Assembly: GCF_000717185.1 (NCBI RefSeq)
Contig: NZ_JNYE01000078.1
Coordinates: forward strand, 1-64,000
From: Kitasatospora phosalacinea
GTDB taxonomy: Bacteria > Actinomycetota > Actinomycetes > Streptomycetales > Streptomycetaceae
Direction of reading: 5' to 3'
DNA length: 64,000 bases
Below are positions 3,400 to 55,281 of this stretch, one piece after another. The notes under the pieces are model-generated. The model made no database searches, was not told the origin of the DNA, and worked only from the letters and a program-made list of their open reading frames with translations. The position numbers were made by a program, and so were the translations under genes. The number at the start of each line of letters is the position of its first letter. The stretch's first letter is position 1.

Positions 3400-4290
3400 T
3401 CAGCCGCTGATCGGGAAGGCGATGTCGCAGACCTGGTCGGACGGTTCGGCGGTGGCCCAGTCGGCGAAGTACACCTCGCGGCCGGGGCCGGTGCGCGGGG
3501 TGCCGGTGCGCTCCATCCAGGCGCACACCGCGTCGTAGGCGCTGAGGATCTGCGGGTACTCCACCTGCGCCTTGGTGATCGTGGTGTACGCCTCCCGGTG
3601 CGCGGGCTCGGTGCGGTGCGCGGCGGTCGGGCCCGCGGCGGTCAGCTCCCCGGCGCGGGCCGGGTCGACCGGGACGCAGACCTCCACCGGGCCGTCGGCG
3701 TCCTCGTTGACGTCCCCGTGGTAGACCACGAACGGGGCGGCCGCCACGCCGCCGTGGGCCGCCGCGACGGCCTCCAGCCGGGCGGTGGCCTCCGGGATGA
3801 AGCGGTCCAGCTCCTCCGGCTTGGCGCGGCGCTGCTCGGTGAGCACCAACTGCTCGGGCACGTCGCGCTGTTCGATCCGGTACATCTCGTCGATCCCTTC
3901 GAGTCCGCTGAGTTGGACGCGGAGGTGGTCGGCCAGCGTCCGCTGCGAGGCGGTCCGCCGTTCGACGGCGGCCCAGTACGCGGCGACCCGCTCGGCCGCC
4001 GCGGGGCCCGGCAGGGCGAGCACCTCGGCGACCACGGCCAGCGGCATGTCCAGGCCGCGCAGCCGGACGATCAGCCGCGCGGTGGCCAGCCGCTCCGGCC
4101 GGTAGTACCGGTAGCCGCTGTCCGGGTCGATCCGGTCCGGCGGCAGCAGCCCCTGCCGGTCGTACAGCCGCAGCGCCTTCGGCGACAGCAGGCCGCGGCG
4201 GGCGAACTCACCGGTGGTGAGCAGCCGTTCCTCCTCCGCACCGGCAACGCTGCGGCCTGCCCCAGGGGCGGGGTCAAGCCCGTGGTTCAC
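3400..4290 (-). CDS. MerR-family transcriptional regulator with GyrI-like effector domain
   Basis: 296 aa if translation starts at the GTG at 4290-4288. That start overlaps the TGA of the upstream dipeptidase gene (GTGA), so it is probably translationally coupled. The N-terminal MerR winged helix reads [21 protein letters not shown], then [20 protein letters not shown], followed by a dimerisation helix. From about residue 140 the protein resembles the GyrI/AraC effector-binding fold of TipA and BltR-type multidrug sensors. No Cys-rich metal site is visible, so a small organic ligand is more likely than a metal. It closes the purK-purE-dipeptidase unit. The target is unknown. Confidence 0.85.
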
Positions 4291-5480
4291 GCGCCGTCCA
4301 CCTGCTCGCGGGTGGCGTTCGAGGGGCGGCGCCCGGCCCGCAGCCGGGTGGCGACCGTCTCGGCGCCGCGCAGCACCCGCAGCGCGTTGTGCCAGGTCAG
4401 CTTGGCGAGGTCGGCCTCGGACCAGCCGCGGCGCAGCAGTTCGGCGACCAGCACCGGGTACCCGGAGACGTCCTCCAGGCCGGAGGGGGTGAAGGCGGTG
4501 CCGTCGTAGTCGCCGCCGATGCCGACGTGGTCGATGCCGGCGACCTCCCGCACGTGGTCGAGGTGGTCGGCGACGGTCCCGGCGGTGGCGACCGGGCGGG
4601 GGTGCGCGGCCTCGTGGGCGCGCTGCACGGCCATCGCCGCGGGGGTGGTCTCCAGCGGGTGCAGGCCGTGGGCGCGCATGTTCTCGTCGGCGGCGAGCGT
4701 CCACTCGACGGCGGCGGGCAGCACGAACTTCGGCACGAAGGTGACCATCGCGACGCCGCCGTTGGCGGGCAGCTGGGCCAGCACGTCGTCGGGGACGTTG
4801 CGCGGGTGGTCGCAGACGGCGCGGGCGGAGGAGTGCGAGAAGAGCACCGGCGCCTCGGAGACCCGCAGCGCGTCGCGCATGGTGTCGGCGGAGACGTGCG
4901 AGAGGTCGACCAGCATGCCGAGCCGGTTCATCTCCCGCACCACCTCCTCGCCGAACGGGCTCAGCCCGCCGTGCACGGGCTCGTCGGTCGCGGAGTCCGC
5001 CCACGGCACGTTGGAGTTGTGGGTGAGCGTCAGGTAGCGCACGCCCAGCTCGTACAGCGCGCGCAGGGTGGCCAGCGAGGAGTTGATGCTGTGCCCGCCC
5101 TCGGCGCCCATCAGCGAGGCGATCCGGCCCTCGGCGCGGGCGGCCTCCACCTCGTCGGCGGTCAGCGCGAGCCGCAGGTGCTCGGGGTGGCGGGCGGTCA
5201 TCGCCCTGACGAAGTCGACCTGTTCGAGCGTCGCGCTGACCGCGCCGTCCCCCGACAGCTCGGCCGGCACGTACACCGACCAGAACTGCGCACCGACCCC
5301 GCCCGCCCGCAGGCGGCCGAAGTCGGTGTGCAGCCGGTGGCTCTGGTCGGCCGTCAGGTCGACGGCGTCGAGGTCGTACCCCGCCTGGGCGCGCATCGCC
5401 CAGGGCAGGTCGTTGTGGCCGTCCAGCACCGGCGTGGTGCGCAGGACGGCCCGGGCGCGGTCGAGCAGTTCGGGGGTCAT
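4287..5480 (-). CDS. membrane dipeptidase family (peptidase M19)
   Basis: 397 aa. Family M19 zinc dipeptidases hydrolyse dipeptides, including those with a D-residue at the C-terminal position. The binuclear metal ligands are recognisable: HNDLPWA at the N-terminus (H, D), the bridging Glu in MGAEGGHSI, two His in VDLSHVS and FSHSSARAV, and Asp in GIGGDYDG. No signal peptide or membrane anchor is seen, so it is probably cytoplasmic despite the family name. The start ATG directly follows GGGGGG, 12 nt after the purE stop, so it belongs to the purK-purE operon. Its role there is not obvious. Confidence 0.88.
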
Positions 5481-5492
5481 CCCCCCGTTCTA

Positions 5493-42435: not shown

Positions 42436-43074
42436 TTACTCGTTCCGCGCGCCCCCCGCGTCCCCCTCCCAGGACGCGAGGGCCCGGGCAGCGACTTCCC
42501 GGTGGCCGTCGTGAACGCTTTCGGCCAGGACCGTCCGAATCATCGGCGAGACTTCGGAGCGGTACGAGTGGAGCCTGGGGTCGTCCAAAAGGTGGGCGGC
42601 CGCGAGAAGGGCGGCTTCCTGGACTTCCCCTGCCGGGGAATGCAGATGGGGAGCGACGCCGAGGAAAATCCTCGGACGGATTTCCTGAAACTCCCTGAAA
42701 AGGGTAGTGCGATCCGGCCCGAACCACTCTTCCAACTGCCGCTCCCGGTGGTCGCTTACGGTGTATGCCGATTCGGCCAGCCATGACAGGAGCCGCCGCC
42801 GGTGCTTGGGGTCCAGGAATTCACCGCTACCGGCGTCGTACAGCAGCGCGGCGACGTAGCAGGCGACCGGGGCAGTGGCGGAGCAGAGGGAACCCTGGTG
42901 GAGGACCTCTCCCCACAGGTGGTCAAGGGCGGCTTCTGCGGCGGCAGGCTCGCCGGACAGCAGTCCGGCCAGCTTCAGGGGGGTCTCGGGGGCAGCCGGG
43001 CCGTAGGCGTGCTCAAGGCCGGACCAATCGGTCTCCGCGAGGATCGCACGGGGGTCGGGGATTCTACTTTCCAC
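42436..43074 (-). CDS. putative immunity protein for the RHS toxin (HEAT-like)
   Basis: 212 aa from a GTG at 43074 with GAGAGG 8 nt upstream. All-helical composition; the opening AETDWSGLEHAYGPAAPETPLKLAGLLSGEPAAAEAALDHLWGEVLHQGSLCSATAPV (in part) matches a HEAT-repeat-like actinobacterial family. No signal peptide, so cytoplasmic. It lies 115 nt downstream of the RHS toxin stop on the same strand, and its base composition is clearly less GC-rich than the core genes, like the toxin tip. Position makes immunity the best guess. The family itself is not proof and resemblance to known DddA immunity proteins was not established. Confidence 0.65.
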   Translation of the reverse strand: MESRIPDPRAILAETDWSGLEHAYGPAAPETPLKLAGLLSGEPAAAEAALDHLWGEVLHQGSLCSATAPVACYVAALLYDAGSGEFLDPKHRRRLLSWLAESAYTVSDHRERQLEEWFGPDRTTLFREFQEIRPRIFLGVAPHLHSPAGEVQEAALLAAAHLLDDPRLHSYRSEVSPMIRTVLAESVHDGHREVAARALASWEGDAGGARNE

Positions 43075-43112: not shown

Positions 43113-43151
43113 GGCCCGCCCGCCCCCCGAAGCGGGGGAGACGGGCGGGCC
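43113..43151 (-). terminator. stem-loop between toxin and immunity genes
   Basis: GGCCCGCCCG/CGGGCGGGCC arms enclose a second CCCCC/GGGGG stem. It begins 38 nt past the toxin stop. It may stop or attenuate read-through into the immunity gene, which then needs its own promoter; a GATAAT-like hexamer sits just before the immunity ribosome site. Confidence 0.7.
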
Positions 43152-43189: not shown

Positions 43190-46100
43190 CTAGTTCCCCA
43201 CGAATGTCCCCGCCTTGTAGAATTTCCTGCCCCTCTGGAAGTAGACGGTGAGTGTTGATCCCGTCGGCAGCATGTCCCGGATGGTGGCGAGGCAGGTGTA
43301 GCAGACACCGCGCGGGTGGGTGATCATCAGGATCCCGCTCTTCACCTCGTCCTTGTATTTGTGCATGAGCGCCGCGGCTTGCGCCTCGACGTGGGTTTCC
43401 CAGCCTTCCTTGGCCCCCTTGGGGGGCTTGTAGCCGGGGTACGGCTTGCTCGACACCAGGTCGTGGTCGCTGTGGCCCTGCAGCCTGAGGAAGCCGCCGG
43501 TCGCACCCTCGTCCCCGGTGGAACCACCGGGGTTGGAGGAACGCGCCGCACTCTCCGACGCCCTCGCGTGGGCGCCTTCCTCTGCGGTCGGACAGTTGTG
43601 GACCAGCAGAGGTGTCGCGCCGGCCAGCACGTAGTACGTGTGGAGGTCTGCGACGGTGAGGTTGTACGCGCTGCTCGGCGGGGTGCCGTAGCTCCGGGTC
43701 GCGATGACGGTGACATCGGTGCCATCGACCGTGCGGAGCTCGTGACCGACGGGAACGTCGGTGGCGTCCACCCAGCTCCGGGACGTCTCGTCCCAGTAGG
43801 CGTGGTGGGCCGTGGACGTGATCTTCTCAAGCTCGGAGTCGGAACTCCCGCGAACCGTCAGATCGGTGAAATCGATGTCGTTGTGGCCGACGATGGTGGC
43901 CACGACCGGTTCGGGCCTGGTCTCACCGGTCTGCGGATCGGTGGCCAGAACCAGGTCGCCGAGTTCGAGCTGGTTGATCGGCTCGGTGCTTCCGTCAGCG
44001 AGTTGGACCAGCGTCCCCGCAGGGAAGCTGTTGCCGTTGATCGGGCATGAACCACCGCTGTCCGCCTTCGCGGCATCCGCTTCCACCGCCTTCGCGGCAT
44101 CCGCTTCAGCGGCCTTGGCCGCTTGCGCCTCGGCCTCCGCGACCTCCTTCTCGGTCTTGCGGGCGACGGAGAGCGCTTCCTCGGCTCCCTTGGCCACGCG
44201 TTCCGCGCTACGGATGGCGTCGTAGGCCTTCTCGCCCTCGCGCCACAGCTTGAATGCCTTGATGCCGACCTTGACGGCCTTGAAGACCTTGCTCCACGGA
44301 ACGAAGTTCAGGGCCGTGTTGACGCAGCCCATGACGTCGCCCTTGGTGAAGCAGTCGCGGGCGTCGTTGAAGCCGATCAGGTCGCCGACGACGTCGATGA
44401 TCTGCTTGACCAGTTCCTCGCGGGCCTGCTTGGCCTTGGCGAGCGCCGCGTCGGCGGCCTGCTTCTGCCGCAGGGCCTCGTTCTTGGCGCCCTGCGCGGC
44501 CTTGGAGGCCGGAGTGGTGCTCGAGGAATCCTTGCCGCTTCCACCGTTGCCCTGGTCGAGGCCGGTCTTCCCGGCGGCGTAGGCGTCCCAGCCGGCGGCC
44601 GACATGCAGCGGCCGGTGTCGTCGGGGATGCAGGTGCCGTCCGGGTCGGCGTGGTCGACGGGGTTGTTGTCGGCGTAGGCGTAGGCGTTCCACGACTGCG
44701 GGTCCGAGCCGTTGAAGACCGGGTCGACGGACAGGAAGCGCCCTGTCTTCGGGTCGTATTGTCGGGCGCCGAGGTTGGTGAATCCGGTGCCTTCGATGGT
44801 GCCGCCGACGAAGCCCTTGTCGCCGGCCCAGACGCCGTTGCCGGGCTGGGTGCCGCGGGCGTTGCCGAAGGGGTCGGTGGGGCGTCGGGCGACGGTCAGG
44901 TTGGCGGCGTCCAGTTGGACGCCGGCGGTGCCGTGCGGGTCGGACGCCTGGTAGTAGAGCACCGTGGCGCCGGCGTCGTCGGCGGTTCGGGTGATGGTCA
45001 GGCCGCCCGGAGCCGGGTAGTACCGGGTGGCGGTGGTCTTGCCGGTGGCGGTGTCGAGGGTGACCTCGTCGGTGCCCAGGTTGAGGGTGGTCTTGCCGCC
45101 CACGCGCCGGATCAGCTGGCTACCGTCCGGTCCGTAGACGTAGCTGGTGTCGGCGGCCGGGGCCGCGGTGTCGTGGACCTTGGTGAGCTTGCCCTGGTTG
45201 TCCCAGGTCAGCGTCTTGGTCCCGGTGGTGTCCGTGACGGACGTGGTGTTGCCGGTCGCGTCGTAGGTGGACGTGGTGACCTTGCTGGTGCCGTTCGCGC
45301 TGGTCTTGGAGGTGAGCAGCGCGTGGGGTCCGCCGGTGCCGCCGCCCGTGGTGGGGTCGTTGGTGGCGGTGTTGGGGCCGGGGGCGAAGGTCTGGTCGGT
45401 CTGCCGGTCGTTGACGACCGCGCCGGTGATGTCGTGCTGGACCAGCTTGGTGCGGTTGCCGGTCAGGTCGTAGGAGTAGGTCTGCCAGTAGGGGGCTGGG
45501 CCGCCGATCCGGGCCGAGGCGGTGGCCGCGGTGGGCTCGGTGGCGTTGGTGCAGCTGCCGATGCCCTGCACGGAGGGTGCGGGGGCGGTGGTGGTGGTGC
45601 CCTTGTCGGTCCAGGCCGAGCTGAGGCGGCCGAGGTAGTCGTAGGTGAAGCACTGCAGGTCGGTGGAGGTACCGTCCTGGACGGTCTTCGCCGAGGTCAT
45701 CGAACCCACCTTGTTGTAGGTGTAGTTCGTGAGGTCGACGTGGGTGGTGGCCGCGGTCTGCTTGTCCAGGGTGGACTGCACGACGTTGCCGGTGCCCGGG
45801 TCGTACTGCTGGGTGGAGACGACCTGCTTGCCGGACGCGCCCACCGTGGTGCGGGTGGGGCGGCCGAACGCGTCGTACTGCATGTCCTGGACGTAGTAGT
45901 CCAGGCCGCTGGAGGTCTGGAAGTTGCCGTCGACGTCGTAGGAGTTGCCGACGGTCTCGGCTGCCAGACCGCCCACCGCGGGCAGCGTGGTGCTCCTGGC
46001 CAGCCCGAGGACCAGCGAGTAGCTGTTCGTCCAGCTGTAGGTCTTGGCCAGCTTCTCTTCCTTGGCCACCGACGGGATCGTGATCGACGTCCCGGTCGGC

Positions 46101-49100
46101 CGGTAGCCGAGGTCGTAGCCGGTGACCGCGCTGACGTACGCCACCTTGCCGGATCCGTCGGGGGCGTCGGCGTAGGTGGTCGTGCTGGTGGGCTTGCCCA
46201 GGACCAGGGAGTCGTACGTCCACTCGGCGAGCTTCTTGCTCGCGTCGGTGGTGCCGGTCCCGTCGTACGAGGCGACCTGTCGGCCGAGCAGGTCGTAGGT
46301 GACACTGGTGGACTTGCCGCGCGCGTCGGTGGTGGTGACGGGGTGTCCGGCCTTGTCGTAGAGCATGGTCGACGTGCCGGCGTCCGGGTCGGTCGAGCTG
46401 GTCTGCTGGCCGAGCAGGTCGTAGGTGTACGTCCACCGGTGGGCCGGGGTGCTGCTGTCCTGGATCCAGAGCGGCTTGCCCGCGACGTCGTACCCGTAGG
46501 TCGTCGCGTCGTAGACGCCGGTCGGGGTGCCGGCCTTGTACTGCCGGATCTCGACCGGGGAGCCGGTGGCGTCGGTGATCGTGGTGGTCGCGTAGCCGCC
46601 GGGCGGCGGGGTGGCGTCGGTGCGCTCGGCGCCCGGGTAGGAGGCCGTGCTGCGCCACTGCTCCTGGCCGTAGGAGATGAACTTGCTGGCGGTGATCCGG
46701 CCGAGGCCGTCGTACTCGTTCCAGGTCTGGGTCGGCACCTGCGAGTCCTGCGGCAGGAACACGGTCGCGATCGGGCCCGAGTCGGCGTTGTGGTACGCCG
46801 GGGTGGACTTGATCTGCCAGCCGTGCGAGTCGTAGGTCGCCTCGGAGATCAGTCGGCCGACCTGGCCCTGCACCGGCATCGACTGCGACTGGCGGACGCG
46901 GCCGAGGCCGTCGTAGATCTGCAGGCTCTTGGCGTAGGTGCGGTCCTCGCGGATGCTCTCGCTGGTGACGACCGACGGGGAGGTCGAGCCGTTCAGCGCG
47001 TAGGTGAACTTCCGGTTGGGCGCGGTCTTCCGGGCGTCCGTGCTGTTCGGGTCGCGGCCGGGCAGCCAGACCGCGGTGAGGCGGCCGAGGGCGTCGTAGG
47101 TCTCCAGCGTGGTGCGGCCGTTCTCGTCGGTCGCCTTGGTGGGCAGGCCGCGAGCGGGGTCGACGACGGTGGTGGACTTCCAGCCGAGCGGGTTGGTGAC
47201 GTCCACCTGGGAGGGCAGCTCACCGGTGGCGGGGGTGTACGCCGTGGTGGTGGTCGCGCCGTTGGGGTGGGCGGTGTCGGTGCGGTTGGGGTCGGTGGTG
47301 GAGACCTGGCGGCCGTAGGCGTCGAACTGCGCCTTGGCGGTCACCCGGTAGTTCGGGGTGTTGTTGGCGCCGTAGGACTCCAGGACGCGGGTCTCGGTCT
47401 GGTCGGCCTTGTCGCCGATGGTGCCCAGCGCCTGGCCGTCGTAGATGGTCAGCGCGTCGGAGACGGTGTTGGCCTGGGTGGGCGTCTGGCCGCAGGCGCC
47501 GGCCAGGGTGAGGATGCGCGAGGGCAGCTCGACCAGGGCCGGGTTGCTGCCCGAGGCGTACGTCATCGAGGTGCACTGGCGCTGCGGGTAGCCGCTGAGC
47601 GTGGTGTCGCCGAGGACGTCCATGGTGACGACGCGTCCGGCGTGGTCCTCGTCGTAGGTGGCGCTGCGCTCGGTGGTCCGCCACTGGCCGTTGGACAGCA
47701 GCGAACGGTTCTTCACGTTGGCCGTGTTGATGTAGCGGGCGGTGACCTTGGGCAGGGTGCCGGGCTGGGTGTGGGTCGCGGTGATCTTGGAGAGCCACGG
47801 GGTGGTGAGCTCGCCGCCGACGACCTTGGCGCCCGCCGCGTCCGACTCGTAGTTCTGGGTCTCCCGGACGAATCCGGCCAGTTCCTCGGCGTCGGTGATC
47901 GACTCGCCCCAGCTGTCGGTGACCTGGCCGCCCATGCCGCGCAGGTAGGTGCTGACCGACTTGGTGCGGGGGCCGTCCGAGCCGGAGCCCGTCGTGGTGG
48001 TGACGGTCTGGTAGCCGCGGAAGTTGTCGTAGGTGCGGGTGTCGTCGTCCGCGAACTCGGAGTCGTTGCGGTGCCAGGCGGCGCCGCCGCCGTAGGCGTA
48101 CTGGGTCTCCTTGGCCACGGTGGAGCTGGTGACCGGCGAGGACTCGACGATCGAGGAGACCAGGTACTTGTGGAACCAGTCGTCGATCGGCTTGGTGCCG
48201 GCCTGCGAGCCCGGGGGGACCCACTTCACCGGCATGCACGCCATGGTGTTCCCGGCCTCGGAGGCCGGCATGGTGTTGTTGACGCGGGAGCACTCGGCGG
48301 GCTTGTAGTTGACGGTGATCCGGCCACCGGTCTCGGTGGTGACCTCCTTCATCCGGGGCCGGTTGAACTGCGGGGCCGCCGGGACCAGGCCGTCGACCCG
48401 GTTGGCCATCTGCATCGCCGTGAAGGACACGGCGGGCAGCGCGATGTCCGCCTGGCCGTTCTTGCCGGTGCGCTGGATCGAGCTCAGCCACAGCGTCGGC
48501 GCGTTGCCGTCACCCGGGTCCGAGAAGACCTGGTTGAGCGCCCAGGAGTCCACCACGCGGGCGGCGCCGCCCACGTACACGGTGGTCTGGATGCCGGTCA
48601 GGCGCTTGGAGGTCCAGAACGACGGGCCGTAGTTGGTGCAGGTGCCGGAGGCGGTGCAGGCCTGGTCGAGCGGGGTGTCGGGCCAGGAGGACTGGTTGGC
48701 CACCACGCGCTGGGCGTCGCTGCAGGTGATCGAACCCGAGGCGAAGCAGCGCTCCGCCGTCGTGAAGTCGATCTTCGAAGCGGGGTTGCCCGCGCCCTTG
48801 GAGGCGATCTGGTCGGACAGCCGCAGGCCGTACTGGATCGAGGAGACGTTGGAGTACCGGTCGTACGCGGTGCGGGTGCCGGTGCCGTTGTTCTGGCCGC
48901 CGCCGCGCGCGTAGTAGTTGGACTCCTTCGCGTACTTGTACTTGATCAGGTTGCCGTGCAGGTCGACGATGTGGTCGAGGTTCCACTGCCAGCCCATCTG
49001 GCACCAGGAGGCCAGGCCGGTCGAGGAGTTGTAGCACGGGTCGCCGGCGTGCGGGTGGTACACCGGGACGGTGTTGACCGAGTTGCTGGCCGGATCGGTG

Positions 49101-50488
49101 TTGTCGCCGCCGGGCAGGTGGTTGGCACCGAAGTAGTACTGGGTGCCGTCGGTGGTGGTGACCTTGAAGCCTTCGCCGTTCCAGGCCCCGTTGGCCAGGC
49201 CGGTCAGCGGGGTGACCAGGGTGCCGTCGTCGCCCTGCAGCCGCAGCACGCCGGTGGTGTCGTCCTTGACCAGGACGCCGGAGTGGCCGGCCAGGTTGAG
49301 CTGGAGCGACTGCCCGGCCCAGCACTCGTCGCCGGACATGTCGATGCCGGCCTTGGCACAGGGCTTGTACGAGCGGGAGATGGAGCCGGCCGAGTAGTCC
49401 CAGCCGTCACCGATCCAGCCCGACTGCGAGTTGGTCGACGCGGTGCGCCCGTCCACCGACGAGGAGTCGTAGCCCAGCACCACGCTGGGAGCGGACCCGC
49501 CGACCGCGGTCGGCATGTCGAAGGTGTACGAGTAGGTGAAGTTGCCGGCGTTCGAGCCGGCGCTCCAGGCCGCGGACGGGGCGATCGCGGTCGCCGCGAA
49601 CGAGCCCGAGGAGCCGGACGGGGCGGCCTGCGCGGCCAGCACCATCGCGCCCGAGGACGCGGCGGCGGTCTGCTGGACGAACCCGGCCTGCACGACGGCG
49701 CTGGTCGAGCCGCCCTCGGCCGAGGCGCGGGTGGTGCCCGCGGCGGGTGCCTCGGGCAGTTGCACGTCGGCGGTCAGCAGGCCCGACAGCGGGTCGACGC
49801 TGGAGGGCACCGGGGTGCTGGTGCGGCACTCCTGGGCGTCCGGCGTGGTGAGCGCGCACTCGGGCAGCAGCACCAGCCGGGCCCGGTCGGACCACATCGC
49901 GTTGCCGGTCAGCGCCTTGACGTCGAGCGAGACCTGGAGCTTGTGGCCGCCCTTGGCGGCGCCGCCGGCCCCTTCCAGCCGGACCACCGGACCGGTCGAG
50001 CCGGCCGCCTTGGCCTTGCCCTCGTCCAGCAGGTCGACCTTGACCGAGGGCGTGCCCGCAGCCTTGTCCTTCGCGGTGCCCAGGTCGGTCAGGAACACCG
50101 GCAGGTCGCCGGCCTTGACCCTGGCCTTGCCGCCGGCCGCCGGAGCGGCCCCGCCACCCAGGCGGCGCGCCGCCTCCTGGTCCGCCGACACGTCGACGAC
50201 CTCGACGGTCGCGCTGCCGGCCTTCGCCGGAGCCACCGCCGAGCGCTTCCACTCCCGCGGCACGCCGCCGGTGGCGGCCGTCCCGCCCGCGCCGTCCGAG
50301 CGCCCGGCCACCGAGTCCGCCTCTTGCAGCGGCGTGGTCGGCGGCACCCAGATCTTCGGCGGCTTCTCGGCGAACGCCGGCGGCGCGCCGAGCAGTGACC
50401 CGGTCACTGCCATGAGCGTCAGCAACCCCAGCGCCCTCGACCGGCCTCTCAACCGGTGGCGCGGGGTGCGTTCACGCTGTGCCCCCAT
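43190..50488 (-). CDS. RHS polymorphic toxin with Hint domain and SCP1.201/DddA-like cytosine deaminase tip
   Basis: 2432 aa; ATG preceded by GGGGAGA. A signal peptide ends APPAFA near 40. The body (about 300-1900) is YD/RHS repeat shell (YDALGRL, YDLLGQQ, YDGLGRV and similar), closing with the RHS core GARQYDPKTGRFLSVDP at about 1910 and ADPDG near 1945. A pretoxin helix region and an Ala/Glu/Lys coiled segment (about 2090-2140) follow. Residues 2148-2298 are a Hint domain: Cys after GGS, FPAGTLVQLADGS, TSTAHHAYW and a C-terminal VHN before C2299. Self-cleavage there would free a 134-residue tip with ETHVEAQ (H2366, E2368) and HPRGVCYTC (C2396, C2399), the zinc deaminase signature of the SCP1.201/DddA family. 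The toxin probably deaminates cytosine in DNA of competitors. Confidence 0.9.
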   Translation of the reverse strand: MGAQRERTPRHRLRGRSRALGLLTLMAVTGSLLGAPPAFAEKPPKIWVPPTTPLQEADSVAGRSDGAGGTAATGGVPREWKRSAVAPAKAGSATVEVVDVSADQEAARRLGGGAAPAAGGKARVKAGDLPVFLTDLGTAKDKAAGTPSVKVDLLDEGKAKAAGSTGPVVRLEGAGGAAKGGHKLQVSLDVKALTGNAMWSDRARLVLLPECALTTPDAQECRTSTPVPSSVDPLSGLLTADVQLPEAPAAGTTRASAEGGSTSAVVQAGFVQQTAAASSGAMVLAAQAAPSGSSGSFAATAIAPSAAWSAGSNAGNFTYSYTFDMPTAVGGSAPSVVLGYDSSSVDGRTASTNSQSGWIGDGWDYSAGSISRSYKPCAKAGIDMSGDECWAGQSLQLNLAGHSGVLVKDDTTGVLRLQGDDGTLVTPLTGLANGAWNGEGFKVTTTDGTQYYFGANHLPGGDNTDPASNSVNTVPVYHPHAGDPCYNSSTGLASWCQMGWQWNLDHIVDLHGNLIKYKYAKESNYYARGGGQNNGTGTRTAYDRYSNVSSIQYGLRLSDQIASKGAGNPASKIDFTTAERCFASGSITCSDAQRVVANQSSWPDTPLDQACTASGTCTNYGPSFWTSKRLTGIQTTVYVGGAARVVDSWALNQVFSDPGDGNAPTLWLSSIQRTGKNGQADIALPAVSFTAMQMANRVDGLVPAAPQFNRPRMKEVTTETGGRITVNYKPAECSRVNNTMPASEAGNTMACMPVKWVPPGSQAGTKPIDDWFHKYLVSSIVESSPVTSSTVAKETQYAYGGGAAWHRNDSEFADDDTRTYDNFRGYQTVTTTTGSGSDGPRTKSVSTYLRGMGGQVTDSWGESITDAEELAGFVRETQNYESDAAGAKVVGGELTTPWLSKITATHTQPGTLPKVTARYINTANVKNRSLLSNGQWRTTERSATYDEDHAGRVVTMDVLGDTTLSGYPQRQCTSMTYASGSNPALVELPSRILTLAGACGQTPTQANTVSDALTIYDGQALGTIGDKADQTETRVLESYGANNTPNYRVTAKAQFDAYGRQVSTTDPNRTDTAHPNGATTTTAYTPATGELPSQVDVTNPLGWKSTTVVDPARGLPTKATDENGRTTLETYDALGRLTAVWLPGRDPNSTDARKTAPNRKFTYALNGSTSPSVVTSESIREDRTYAKSLQIYDGLGRVRQSQSMPVQGQVGRLISEATYDSHGWQIKSTPAYHNADSGPIATVFLPQDSQVPTQTWNEYDGLGRITASKFISYGQEQWRSTASYPGAERTDATPPPGGYATTTITDATGSPVEIRQYKAGTPTGVYDATTYGYDVAGKPLWIQDSSTPAHRWTYTYDLLGQQTSSTDPDAGTSTMLYDKAGHPVTTTDARGKSTSVTYDLLGRQVASYDGTGTTDASKKLAEWTYDSLVLGKPTSTTTYADAPDGSGKVAYVSAVTGYDLGYRPTGTSITIPSVAKEEKLAKTYSWTNSYSLVLGLARSTTLPAVGGLAAETVGNSYDVDGNFQTSSGLDYYVQDMQYDAFGRPTRTTVGASGKQVVSTQQYDPGTGNVVQSTLDKQTAATTHVDLTNYTYNKVGSMTSAKTVQDGTSTDLQCFTYDYLGRLSSAWTDKGTTTTAPAPSVQGIGSCTNATEPTAATASARIGGPAPYWQTYSYDLTGNRTKLVQHDITGAVVNDRQTDQTFAPGPNTATNDPTTGGGTGGPHALLTSKTSANGTSKVTTSTYDATGNTTSVTDTTGTKTLTWDNQGKLTKVHDTAAPAADTSYVYGPDGSQLIRRVGGKTTLNLGTDEVTLDTATGKTTATRYYPAPGGLTITRTADDAGATVLYYQASDPHGTAGVQLDAANLTVARRPTDPFGNARGTQPGNGVWAGDKGFVGGTIEGTGFTNLGARQYDPKTGRFLSVDPVFNGSDPQSWNAYAYADNNPVDHADPDGTCIPDDTGRCMSAAGWDAYAAGKTGLDQGNGGSGKDSSSTTPASKAAQGAKNEALRQKQAADAALAKAKQAREELVKQIIDVVGDLIGFNDARDCFTKGDVMGCVNTALNFVPWSKVFKAVKVGIKAFKLWREGEKAYDAIRSAERVAKGAEEALSVARKTEKEVAEAEAQAAKAAEADAAKAVEADAAKADSGGSCPINGNSFPAGTLVQLADGSTEPINQLELGDLVLATDPQTGETRPEPVVATIVGHNDIDFTDLTVRGSSDSELEKITSTAHHAYWDETSRSWVDATDVPVGHELRTVDGTDVTVIATRSYGTPPSSAYNLTVADLHTYYVLAGATPLLVHNCPTAEEGAHARASESAARSSNPGGSTGDEGATGGFLRLQGHSDHDLVSSKPYPGYKPPKGAKEGWETHVEAQAAALMHKYKDEVKSGILMITHPRGVCYTCLATIRDMLPTGSTLTVYFQRGRKFYKAGTFVGN

Positions 50489-50819: not shown

Positions 50820-53800
50820 TCAGGCGATCGCCCCCATGCCCCAGCGCTGCGGGTAGGTCTGGTTGCAGTCCCAGATCTGGAGCTGCGTCCCGTTGGTGAG
50901 GGTGCCGTTCGGGATGTCCAGGCAGCGGCCGGACATCGGGTTGTAGAGCGAGCCGTCGGCGCGGTAGAGCCACTGCTGGGCGGCATTGCCCTTGCAGTCC
51001 CAGAGCTGGATCTTGGTGCCGTTGCCGGTGGCCGCGCCCGTCACGTCGAGGCAGCGGGTGAGCACCTTGATGGAGCCGTCCGACTGCGCGGTGGCCTGCT
51101 GGGCGGTGCTCGGGTTGCAGTCCCAGAGCTGGATCGCGGTGCCGTTGGCGTCCACGCTGCTGTTGGCGTCCAGGCACTTGTTGGAGCCGACGGCGGTCGG
51201 CAGGTTCGCCATGATCCGGCTGGCGGCGGTGCTCGGGTCGGTCGGGACGTCGAACACCTCGACGTCGCTGACGTTGCCGTTGAACGCGGCGGAGAGCGCG
51301 CCCGCCTCCTGGGAGTTGCCGATCACCAGCGGTCCGCTGTAGCCGAACTTGCCGGCGTGGTAGCTGCTGCCCGCGAGCACCCCGTTGACGTACAGCGACA
51401 TGCCTCCGGTGGTGGCGTTGTAGCTGGCGGTCAGCCGGTCCCAGCGGTCCGCCTGGTAGCGGGCGGCGCTGGTGCTGGCGTCCGCCGTCTGGTGGTAGCT
51501 CGGGCTGGCGTTGTCGGTGGTGGCCATGCCGAAGCGCCAGGTGCCGTCCTTGTCCGGCCAGAGGATGAACCCGCTGGAGGTGGCGCCCTTGCTGGACAGG
51601 ACCGAACCGCTCACGCCGGCCGGCTTGGCCCAGACGCTGACGGTGAACGACTTCGAGGTGTCGACCTTGACCTGCTGGGTCTGGCCGGCCCCGTAGGAGA
51701 TCACCGAGTTGGCACCGGCCGCGCCGGTACCGCCGCCGAAGTGCGCGACGGTGGTGCTCCTGCCGTTGACCGTGTCGGCCGGGAAGGTGACCGCGCTGCC
51801 GGCCGTCATCGGGCTCTTGCCGTAGACGTCGGTGACGATGGAGCCGCCGGGGTTGGTGAGCTTCAGCCGGGCGACCGTGCGGCGGCTGTCACCCTGGTCG
51901 TACGGGGTGGTGGCGAAGCCGTTCACCACGGTGGAGCCGGTGGCGGCGGTGCCGGGCCACACCTTGAGGCGGTTGGTGGTGTCCAGGGCCCAGAGGTCGG
52001 GCAGGCCGTCCTTGGTGGCGTCGCCGCTGGAGCCGATCTGCGGGTAGGCGGCGACGGTGAACTTCTGGGTGCCGACGGTCCGGGCCTTGCTGGTCGGGTC
52101 GACCAGGTTGCCGAAGTCCAGGCGGCCGTTGGCGTCGAGCTTGATGTCGTAGGCCCGGATGGTGCCGTCGGCCTTGTCCCGGGTCCACACGGTGGGCTGG
52201 GCGGTGCCGGAGGCCTTGCCGGGGTTGATCAGCTCGTAGTTGTCCCAGTTCGCGGCCGAGACCTTGACGACCGGAGCCGCCACGTCGTTGGTGAACAGGG
52301 TGCGGTAGAGCCAGAGGTTGCCGTTCTCCACGGTGAGCAGCGCGGTCTGGTCCTGCGGGACCTTGCTGGTCTCGCCCTTGGCGGCGGGGGCACTGGTACG
52401 GCCGAGCGCGACCACCTGGGTCAGCTTGCTCCAGTCGTAGGTCCAGTTGGCCGGCTCCGTCTGGGAGACAGTGCCGTCCGCGCCGACGAAGTCGGGGTAG
52501 TCCGGCTTGGCGAGGAGCACCGGCGCCTTGAAGGTGCCGTCGCCGTTGTTCTGGTACAGGTACAGGTTGGAGGCCAGGGGCGTGGTGCCGGAGACCGCGT
52601 TGGTCCACGCGACGGTGTCGTCCACCGGGGTGGGCGTCTGGCGCAGGGCGCCGAGGTGGGTGGTGCGGACGGTCGTGGTGGCGTCGCCCTTCCAGGAGGT
52701 GCCGCCGGGGGCGAGGCCGACCGGGGCGCCCTGGATGGCGGTCATGTCGCTGTCCAGGCCGATGACCCGCAGGTTGCCGAGGGCGTCCGGGGCGAGGACG
52801 TCGCCGCGGCCGTCGCCGTCGAGGTCGCCGGGGGCACCGGCGGCGCTGCTGGCGTCCCAGGGGGCGTAGAAGGTGTAGGGCAGCGGCTGGCTGTAGTTGC
52901 CGGCCACGTCCATCGCCTGCACGTACAGGGTGTTGGTGCCCCAGCGGGGCGGCCGGTAGGAGATGGTTCCGGTGACGCGGGTGGCGTCGCTGAGGTCCCG
53001 GGTCTTCACCACGCCGTCCTTGTTGGCCGTACCGGTGGCGTCGCAGGACCAGCCGGTGACGGCGGTCGGGTCGGTGCTCCAGCGGATGCAGGCCGGGCCG
53101 GAGGCGCGCAGGCCGGACGCGGGAGCCGGGTCGCTGGCGGTGAGGGTGAGGGTGCCGTCCTCGCCGGCCTTCTTCTTCGGGACGGCGCCGATGGTGCCGC
53201 TGGCCGGGAAGTCGGCGGAGGAGACGCCCACCCGGGGCGGGGTCTTGTCGACCCGGAAGTAGCACCAGGGGGTGTCACCGGAGGTCAGCGAGCCGTCGGT
53301 GACGTTCGCCAGCCAGCCGTACTGGTGGCCGTCGGTCATCCGGTCGACGGAGGCCGTGGCACTGCCGTAGCTGCCGGCCCCGCCGCTGCTGGGGTAGGCG
53401 TGCCAGGTGCTGTCGTTGTCGTCCCAGATGTGGAAGTTGACGGTGGTGCCGGCGCCGATCGGCGACCAGGCGCTGGCGTTCAGGTAGACGTACTGGTTGG
53501 CGCCGACCCAGCCCGCGTTGTCCCAGGCGTTGCCGCCCGGGGTCTGGCAGTCGTTGCCCTGGGTGCCGAAGGTCGGGTCGTTGGTGAAGCCGGGCATCGG
53601 GGTGGTCCGCGGGTACCAGATCGTCGGCGTGATGTCGTAGACGGTGCTGATGTGCGCGTTGGAGCCGATGTGGTGGCGCAGCAGCTTGTCGGTCTCGTTC
53701 TCGGCCGAGATGCCGATCGTCCAGTTGGGGGTCTTCTCGTTGACGATCTTCTGCATCCACCAGGTGACGTCCCAGCTGATGGTGCCGGTGCCGGTGCCGG

Positions 53801-55223
53801 TGACGTCGGCGTTGGACGCCCAGGTGCAGCCGGTCATCTTGCCGTTGGTGCCGCACGGCTGGTTGTTCCAGGTGGTGGTGCCCTGGAAGGCCGGGGCGCT
53901 GTACACGTTCAGCGTCGACTTGGTGGACGGGGAGGAGGCGTCGACGACGGTGGTGGACAGGGTGGCGCGGTTGACGGTCGCGGTGCCGTGGCCGCCGCCC
54001 TCGAACAGGCCGTCGGGGCTGGGGATCTGGTAGTACGCGCGGTAGCGGCCGTAGCCGGTGCAGTCCGAGTAACCGCAGTAGCCGACGCCCAGCGAGCTGA
54101 GGGTGTTGACGTTGGCGGTGTCGGGGTGGTTCTCCTGGACCTGCGCGTTGACCGTGGCGCCCTTGTCGACGCTGGTCTCGGGGTCGAGGTACCAGGGGCC
54201 GGTGCCCTGGCCGAAGGTGGCCGGGTCCGGGGTCAGCACCAGCTCGGTGTCACTGACGGAGATCCCGATCTCGGAGACCGCGGCGGCGGCGCCGGGCCGC
54301 TCGGCGTTCGAGGACTCGGCCTCGGCCTCCGCCTCGGCGGCGCCGGGCGCGGCGAACAGCGACTTGGCCTGGACGCCATCGGACTTGACCACGGGGGCAG
54401 GCTCGGGGACGGGGGTGGAGTCCCACTGGAACGGGGTCGGCGCGTGGAAGCGCGTCCTGCCCTGGGCGTCCTTGAACGAGACGTTGCCTGCCTCGTCGGT
54501 GTCGGCCTTCACGCCGGTGGTCTCCAGCGGGAAGCGCAGGCTCTTCAGCCGCGGGTCGGCGGCGGCCTGCGCGGTCTTGACCACGATCACGTCGCGCCAG
54601 CCGCCGTCCGGACGGGCCGTCACCAGCAGGTCCACGTCGGGCAGCACGGAGGCGTAGGTCGCGGTCGGGCCGTCCAGGGTCGGCTTCGGCAACGGGAACG
54701 GGGCGCTGATCGCCATCGAGGTGCCGTCGGCCGTGGTGATCTTCGCCAGCGGGCCGCTGCCGCCGCCGGAGAGCACCAGGTCGGAGCCGGTCAGCGCCGG
54801 GGTGACGGTGCCGTCCGCGTTGGCCCGCAGGCTCGCGTCGAGTTCCTGCCAGGTGCCGTTGCGCTTGGTCCGGACGTCCTGGGCGTTGGCCTCCGAGGAC
54901 AGCGTCCGGCCGTCGGGGTTGGCGAAGACCTCGGTCGTCTCGTTGGTCATCGAGTCGATCCGGACCTGCTTGCCGGTCTCCTGGGCCTGCCGGAGCGCCG
55001 AGCGGATCGCCCTGGTCTGCTCGCTCTCGGCCTGCGGCTGCGCGCTGTCCGCGCCCGCGGTGGACGCCGGCACGGGCGTCTGGTCGACGGCCCGGGCGGC
55101 CGGGGAGCAGAGCGCGGTGAGCACGAGCGCCGTGGCCGCGGCCACCGTCGCGCGACCGAGCACGCCCCTCCGGTCGGTTCCGGCACACCGGGGACGGTGT
55201 CTCGGTGAGGTCGTATCGGACAT
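50820..55223 (-). CDS. large secreted protein with FG-GAP, LamG and ricin-type lectin domains
   Basis: 1467 aa from the ATG at 55223. The signal peptide has a hydrophobic core ATVAAATALVLTALC and a cut near ARA|VDQ. A broad N-terminal region of the DNRLRE-like type found beside actinobacterial RHS proteins (TYASVLPDVDLLV, TFGQGTGPWYLDPE, TTWNNQPC) is followed by Ig-like segments. FG-GAP-like repeats come next (GDLDGDGRGDVLAPD, DATKDGLPDLWALD). A LamG jelly roll spans about 1150-1325 (SFTVSVWAKP, SLYVNGVLAG, NGNVSDVEVFD), and a C-terminal ricin-B trefoil has three QLWDC/QIWDC units. Carbohydrate or surface binding is expected. It is encoded just upstream of the toxin on the same strand and may be an accessory or adhesin; no catalytic domain is evident. 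Confidence 0.85.
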   Translation of the reverse strand: MSDTTSPRHRPRCAGTDRRGVLGRATVAAATALVLTALCSPAARAVDQTPVPASTAGADSAQPQAESEQTRAIRSALRQAQETGKQVRIDSMTNETTEVFANPDGRTLSSEANAQDVRTKRNGTWQELDASLRANADGTVTPALTGSDLVLSGGGSGPLAKITTADGTSMAISAPFPLPKPTLDGPTATYASVLPDVDLLVTARPDGGWRDVIVVKTAQAAADPRLKSLRFPLETTGVKADTDEAGNVSFKDAQGRTRFHAPTPFQWDSTPVPEPAPVVKSDGVQAKSLFAAPGAAEAEAEAESSNAERPGAAAAVSEIGISVSDTELVLTPDPATFGQGTGPWYLDPETSVDKGATVNAQVQENHPDTANVNTLSSLGVGYCGYSDCTGYGRYRAYYQIPSPDGLFEGGGHGTATVNRATLSTTVVDASSPSTKSTLNVYSAPAFQGTTTWNNQPCGTNGKMTGCTWASNADVTGTGTGTISWDVTWWMQKIVNEKTPNWTIGISAENETDKLLRHHIGSNAHISTVYDITPTIWYPRTTPMPGFTNDPTFGTQGNDCQTPGGNAWDNAGWVGANQYVYLNASAWSPIGAGTTVNFHIWDDNDSTWHAYPSSGGAGSYGSATASVDRMTDGHQYGWLANVTDGSLTSGDTPWCYFRVDKTPPRVGVSSADFPASGTIGAVPKKKAGEDGTLTLTASDPAPASGLRASGPACIRWSTDPTAVTGWSCDATGTANKDGVVKTRDLSDATRVTGTISYRPPRWGTNTLYVQAMDVAGNYSQPLPYTFYAPWDASSAAGAPGDLDGDGRGDVLAPDALGNLRVIGLDSDMTAIQGAPVGLAPGGTSWKGDATTTVRTTHLGALRQTPTPVDDTVAWTNAVSGTTPLASNLYLYQNNGDGTFKAPVLLAKPDYPDFVGADGTVSQTEPANWTYDWSKLTQVVALGRTSAPAAKGETSKVPQDQTALLTVENGNLWLYRTLFTNDVAAPVVKVSAANWDNYELINPGKASGTAQPTVWTRDKADGTIRAYDIKLDANGRLDFGNLVDPTSKARTVGTQKFTVAAYPQIGSSGDATKDGLPDLWALDTTNRLKVWPGTAATGSTVVNGFATTPYDQGDSRRTVARLKLTNPGGSIVTDVYGKSPMTAGSAVTFPADTVNGRSTTVAHFGGGTGAAGANSVISYGAGQTQQVKVDTSKSFTVSVWAKPAGVSGSVLSSKGATSSGFILWPDKDGTWRFGMATTDNASPSYHQTADASTSAARYQADRWDRLTASYNATTGGMSLYVNGVLAGSSYHAGKFGYSGPLVIGNSQEAGALSAAFNGNVSDVEVFDVPTDPSTAASRIMANLPTAVGSNKCLDANSSVDANGTAIQLWDCNPSTAQQATAQSDGSIKVLTRCLDVTGAATGNGTKIQLWDCKGNAAQQWLYRADGSLYNPMSGRCLDIPNGTLTNGTQLQIWDCNQTYPQRWGMGAIA

Positions 55224-55281
55224 GGCGCGCGCGGTCTCCCTCCGAGCTGCCCGCCCTCGATGAGCAGGCATTCGAACGGGA

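Follow-up and report, generated by a model that had tools for sequence, protein, structure and literature searches.

A DddA-like deaminase tip on an RHS protein of Kitasatospora phosalacinea and its likely helical immunity partner

Which activity is carried by the C-terminal tip of a large RHS protein of Kitasatospora phosalacinea, and what would keep this activity in check inside the producing cell? The gene in question lies in a stretch of 64,000 nucleotides (contig NZ_JNYE01000078.1, positions 1 to 64,000 of the forward strand; henceforth the window) and encodes a protein of 2432 amino acids (aa), followed by the gene of a 212-aa partner protein. According to the reading put forward here, to which a probability of about two in three is assigned, the RHS protein would be a toxin secreted against bacteria, its tip would turn cytosine in DNA into uracil, and the 212-aa neighbor would be the immunity protein. 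New is a divergent clade of tips with a CxxC zinc motif, which has a likely immunity family of its own as well as altered residues at the positions by which DddA opens DNA. Domain content, motif residues, clade, and linkage of tip and partner are shown by the data, whereas export, cleavage, DNA deamination, substrate, and immunity are inferred.

The deaminase tip and its relatives

The profile of the DddA-like family PF14428, for which the curated cut-off is 25 bits, matches the isolated 136-aa tail of the RHS protein with 43.2 bits (E 4.7e-11) and the whole protein at residues 2347-2422 with 37.8 bits (E 2.2e-9). A preliminary description of the locus had read a DddA/SCP1.201-like tip from sequence motifs and had proposed a hidden Markov model search against deaminase families as well as a structural comparison with DddA; profile, Protein Data Bank (PDB) sequence and fold searches now agree on this assignment. 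Among the PDB sequences, the DddA chains are found with the tail alone at E 0.003 and with a profile of eight related tips at 3.9e-9. The motifs ETHVEAQ (residues 2364-2370) and HPRGVCYTC (residues 2391-2399), which constitute the HxE and PxGxCxxC signatures, are present as described, with LPTGSTLTVYF directly after the cysteine pair; their distance is 27 residues from start to start, and the earlier value of 28 is to be corrected. Likewise, the domain limits proposed at that time, 2299-2432, coincide with the HINT boundary between VHN2298 and C2299. H2366, E2368, C2396, and C2399 are invariant in an alignment of eight tips and also in a second alignment. In a rival cell, zinc would be held by H2366, C2396, and C2399, while E2368 would deaminate cytosine, as is suggested by homology.

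The structure of the tip was modeled from the single sequence, with no alignment. Strands and helices follow each other in the order expected of a deaminase fold, which means little by itself at a mean predicted local distance difference test score (pLDDT) of 57. The 12 best PDB matches of this low-confidence model in a Foldseek search are all DddA, DddA-editor or DddB entries. DYW, BURPS668_1122, and other deaminase families were dropped, PF14428 being the sole Pfam match to the tail at E ≤ 1, and a match of the tail to OppD in NCBIfam (E 0.012, 14.4 bits at a cut-off of 575) was regarded as a chance hit. By its sequence, the tip is a member of the DddA-like (PF14428) deaminase family, and by analogy it is very probably a DNA cytosine deaminase. 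Some observations speak against such an assignment. Residues 7-34 and 48-65 of the model are below a pLDDT of 50, the template modeling scores of the Foldseek matches are just 0.42-0.49 (normalized to query length), and only six matches reach E 0.001; moreover, in two of the four relatives scanned PF14428 stays below its cut-off (L087, 18.7 bits; L066, 21.3 bits), and in another one, L088, it is unlisted at E 0.01. That a deaminase fold would act on another substrate, such as RNA or free nucleotides, or would have lost its activity is considered improbable.

Relatives of the tip were collected by several routes. The protein search was confined to 99 candidates sharing exact words, by which more distant relatives were possibly overlooked, and yielded two long relatives, P0003 of Embleya (61% identity) and P0004 of Actinomadura (58%). 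A scan of contigs added at least one new clade member, the Actinomadura locus L066, with an identity equal to that of P0004. PF14428 matched in 44 of 396 related genomes, in 47 places, and a profile built from the three nearest tips matched in 18 of 391 genomes of the order, including G505, G557, and G644. The resulting comparison set consists of 57 tip loci (47 PF14428 places, nine from the three-tip profile search, and L066); together with P0003 these gave a midpoint-rooted tree of 58 tips. In this tree, 28 CxxC tips are split from 30 tips without CxxC (support 94/83), the latter comprising 26 with cysteines further apart and four in which no pair was found by pattern. The window tip forms a clade with P0003, L066, L087, L088, and L089 (six rows, support 100/99), which is nested in a set of 16 CxxC tips (97/89). 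Further clade members were not found at E ≤ 1e-9 among 394 genomes of the class, and an eight-row profile run against short proteins gave one distant match, P0014.

Translated searches with the tip (tblastn) gave no match in 72,556 plasmid records (E 1e-5) or in 50,697 phage records (E 0.01), and of 68 pattern matches in IMG/VR contigs none was confirmed; these collections thus give no indication of the tip itself being spread by plasmids or phages. On other contigs of the genome to which the window belongs, two more long open reading frames (ORFs), L064 and L065, end in CxxC tips matching PF14428, both outside the window clade, so that three different deaminase tips occur in one genome. No gene of the window-partner type was found at these two loci.

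The partner gene as a candidate antidote

Downstream of the toxin gene, the partner gene starts 115 bases past the stop codon. A homologue is located next to the Actinomadura tip, as detected by tblastn with the window partner alone (41% identity, opposite strand). For a wider search, the window protein was combined with seven database relatives and this Actinomadura copy in a profile. With it, a partner homologue was found adjoining the tip in all five clade members of known neighborhood (window, L066, L087, L088, and L089) and, at E ≤ 1, in none of the 52 other tip loci, with less than 800 bases of sequence available past the toxin stop in four of the 57 loci. Two of these hits, those in the window and at L066, are not independent, as their sequences were part of the profile, while L087-L089 are outside it. 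At L089 (positions 3885-5488), the frame of a window-clade tip is broken, and an intact partner frame follows it. From these data, the 212-aa neighbor is very likely the cognate immunity protein, and inside the producer cell it would block the tip.

This assignment has to be weighed against the possibility that the neighbor is an unrelated helical protein which is there by chance. Such a view could draw on the frequency of the family, since partner matches are present in 84 out of 199 related genomes, often as partial matches lying in longer frames; on the 115 bases and the strong hairpin that separate toxin and neighbor; and on the convergent orientation of the partner gene in Actinomadura. 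At 29 loci with partner-type genes (L005-L033), neither an RHS core nor a HINT domain nor a tip was seen within flanks of at most 1.5 kb per side. Family membership alone is, therefore, no proof of immunity; the genes at these 29 loci may be orphan antidotes or may have another function. In addition, L087-L089 are mutually close, so that about three lineages back the pairing of tip and partner, with the neighborhood of P0003 outside the count. However, with few copies per genome of approximately 8 Mb, presence at five of five clade loci versus none of 52 others would hardly arise by chance, and an intact partner frame beside a broken tip gene is what would be expected of a retained antidote. 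A chance neighbor is, thus, rated as improbable.

No Pfam or NCBIfam match to the partner protein was obtained at E ≤ 1, and a defense-system library gave no match for either toxin or partner. The AlphaFold2 model, calculated from eight sequences, has a mean pLDDT of 89 and a predicted template modeling score of 0.88 and consists of twelve helices with no strand of three or more residues. A Foldseek search with this model produced no match at E ≤ 0.001 (best E 0.033); many of the weak matches are HEAT, ARM or designed helical-repeat proteins. Pfam HEAT is detected in three of eight members of the partner family (best E 0.049) and HEAT_EZ in one of eight (E 0.0034), with neither in the window protein. 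The partner is predicted to be a helical, HEAT-like protein, where, in the absence of a fold match at E ≤ 0.001, "HEAT-like" refers to a shape and not to a proven family. At its C-terminus, the window partner (42436-42470, minus strand) is about 17-30 residues shorter than most of the seven relatives aligned with it; PPF is the terminal sequence of six of these. In the gap between the two genes, the scan for terminators revealed none with a T run; the whole gap folds with a z-score of -2.53, and seven of 200 shuffled sequences are equally stable. One promoter-like match over the partner start (43090-43061; shuffle mean 0.1) proves nothing.

The immunity protein listed for SCP1.201 deaminases in Actinobacteria is Imm1 (PF14430), and in the same source HEAT-repeat immunity proteins are given as partners of Tox-REase-7 and not of deaminases (Zhang et al. 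2012, PMC3482391). The search for Imm1 covered the 53 genomes of the tip loci, with the record of L066 left out. Of the 30 tips without CxxC, 20 have an Imm1 gene at a distance of at most 1.5 kb, as against none of the 26 CxxC tips searched; at the CxxC locus L136 Imm1 lies 2.9 kb away, and the genome of the window contains no PF14430 match at E ≤ 0.001. From these counts it follows that the type of zinc motif and the immunity family go together in the sample, the window clade having a partner of its own. In G014, a tip with split cysteines is followed by three Imm1 genes in a row (L107, 5300-7600), which looks like an immunity-gene array. The G+C content at third codon positions (GC3) is 0.97 in the RHS body, 0.86 in the HINT domain, 0.87 in the tip, and 0.79 in the partner gene; the tip value fits the tip frame being the coding frame, and the decrease toward the C-terminal end is in line with exchange of a C-terminal cassette.

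Single-stranded or double-stranded DNA as substrate

In DddA, Phe1375 is described to intercalate in the helix; the variants F1375A, F1375R, M1379A, and M1379R lost activity, and F1375Y kept residual activity (Yin et al. 2023, PMC10442228). In an ungapped alignment around the cysteine pair, Phe1375 corresponds to T2398 and Met1379 to T2402 of the window tip. Since two needed residues are changed, likeness to DddA is no sign of double-strand activity of this tip. Among the 28 CxxC tips, the position of Phe1375 is occupied by Thr in 11 (including the window tip, P0003, and L066), by Tyr in five (including L096, L099, and L137), by Phe in five, and by another residue in seven.

The preliminary description considered few members of the family to be characterized, which is out of date, as 76 and 28 family proteins, respectively, have been tested in two studies. 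According to a commentary (PMC10847098) on Huang et al. 2023, 76 SCP1.201 proteins were assayed in a base-editing reporter, 45 of them with a signal, and single rather than double strands are the substrate of many. In the other study, 28 homologues with HVE and CxxC were tested as split halves on double-stranded DNA in human cells; seven were active, all of them from DddA's own clade as reported there (Sun et al. 2023, PMC10587121). Double-strand activity has further been tied to SPKK-like tails, which were found in four active homologues (Mi et al. 2023, PMC9935910), and the window tip ends in KAGTFVGN, where no such motif is recognized by eye. Taken together, T2398 and T2402, the tail, and the results of Sun et al. 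and Huang et al. make it somewhat more probable than not, as judged from sequence, that the window tip prefers single- over double-stranded DNA.

Alternatively, the tip could be a true double-stranded-DNA cytosine deaminase like DddA which opens the helix in a different way. It is placed in the CxxC half of the tree, shared with L096, which matches DddA at E 1.4e-19, and with the tree neighbors of L096, L099 and L137; HVE and CxxC were also the motifs by which Sun et al. selected candidates (PMC10587121). In the sister tips L087-L089 (and also in L101 and L135), the intercalating position is occupied by Phe, which counts against a single-strand reading; the clade as a whole need, therefore, not be single-strand specific. 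Against a double-strand enzyme stand the replacement by threonine of two residues whose Ala and Arg variants are inactive in DddA, the tail devoid of an SPKK-like motif, and the confinement of double-strand activity to seven of 28 tested proteins, and this alternative is considered unlikely, if less so than an inactive or otherwise directed deaminase. Beyond the preference of the window tip for single strands, a wider scenario can be put forward tentatively, with somewhat less than even chances: a separate branch of CxxC toxins might have left the mode of DddA by the change from Phe to Thr, might mutate single strands, and might use a helical-solenoid immunity family of its own instead of Imm1, as a new toxin-antidote pair in which HINT domain, tip, and antidote form a cassette that is passed between RHS proteins.

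Architecture of the RHS protein and comparison with known systems

The order of domains in the RHS protein, PF05593 (RHS_repeat, E 5.1e-17), TIGR03696, PF07591, and PF14428, is that of a polymorphic toxin (Table 1). In RHS proteins in general, the repeats make a shell which encloses the C-terminal part, and the same would hold here. The N-terminus reads as a Sec signal peptide by eye, and the protein would be exported by the Sec pathway. The HINT domain terminates with HN2298 just before C2299, and the intein_Cterm model TIGR01443 (NCBIfam) matches residues 2274-2299; cleavage by HINT after N2298 would release the tip of 134 residues. The gene directly upstream of the RHS gene (50820-55271, minus strand) encodes a 1483-aa protein with a DNRLRE domain and a C-terminal ricin-type lectin, possibly a co-secreted or target-binding partner of the RHS protein. 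In the relative L088, a ricin-type lectin is found within the toxin ORF itself.

Table 1. Features of the toxin and partner genes in the window
Feature	Position	Strand	Basis
RHS protein gene, 2432 aa, ATG start	43190..50488	minus	ORF open throughout
N-terminal residues 1-41: basic stretch, hydrophobic run, Ala-Phe-Ala	50366..50488	minus	By eye
RHS-associated core, residues 1872-1951	44636..44875	minus	NCBIfam TIGR03696 (Rhs_assc_core), E 2.1e-15
Pretoxin HINT self-cleaving domain, residues 2148-2298 (Pfam range 2161-2298)	43595..44047	minus	PF07591, E 1.2e-14
Deaminase tip, residues 2299-2432	43193..43594	minus	PF14428, PDB sequence and fold matches to DddA, tree
HVE motif, residues 2366-2368 (H2366 putative zinc ligand, E2368 putative catalytic residue; roles by DddA homology)	43385..43393	minus	
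CYTC motif, residues 2396-2399 (C2396 and C2399 putative zinc ligands by DddA homology)	43292..43303	minus	
Strong GC hairpin in the gap between the two genes, devoid of a T run	43113..43151	minus	
Partner gene, 212 aa, GTG start after AGAGGA	42436..43074	minus	

DddA has been placed in the SCP1.201-like subfamily, members of which occur in Actinobacteria (De Moraes et al. 2021, PMC7901873). DddA of Burkholderia cenocepacia (BaDTF1; PDB 6u08, 8e5d, and 8e5e) has PF14428, HVE, and PxGxCxxC in common with the window tip and is the top PDB match of the latter in sequence and one of the top matches in fold. The window tip differs from it by Thr in place of both Phe1375 and Met1379, by the lack of an SPKK-like tail, and by an identity of 19-25% in the fold alignments. 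Whereas DddA is delivered by a type VI system, the window tip is part of an RHS-HINT protein whose N-terminus resembles a signal peptide, and its partner gene has no match to any Pfam immunity family. The single-strand deaminases named Sdd (Huang et al. 2023, as described in PMC10847098) belong to the same Pfam family as the window tip. The pairing of an SCP1.201 deaminase with Imm1 (PMC3482391) likewise involves a polymorphic toxin tip beside an immunity gene in Actinobacteria, but in the window clade the place of Imm1 is taken by a helical protein. HEAT-repeat immunity proteins, as treated in the same source, are likewise all-helical and adjoin polymorphic toxins in Actinobacteria and others; however, their partners there are Tox-REase-7 toxins, and Pfam HEAT does not match the window partner. 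In searches of an open-licence library for such a pairing, no description of a helical partner of an SCP1.201 deaminase was seen, although one may be in print. UmbC1 is reported to be a Streptomyces deaminase toxin able to mutate DNA (PMC11062931).

DddA and its kin are a source of mitochondrial and plant base editors, for which strand preference decides on use. In the clade of the window tip, natural sisters share an immunity family and differ, by Thr or Phe, at the key double-strand residue of DddA, and they constitute a natural test set. The link between zinc motif and immunity family provides a rule for finding further antidotes, and the partner family offers a search handle where Pfam misses the toxin.
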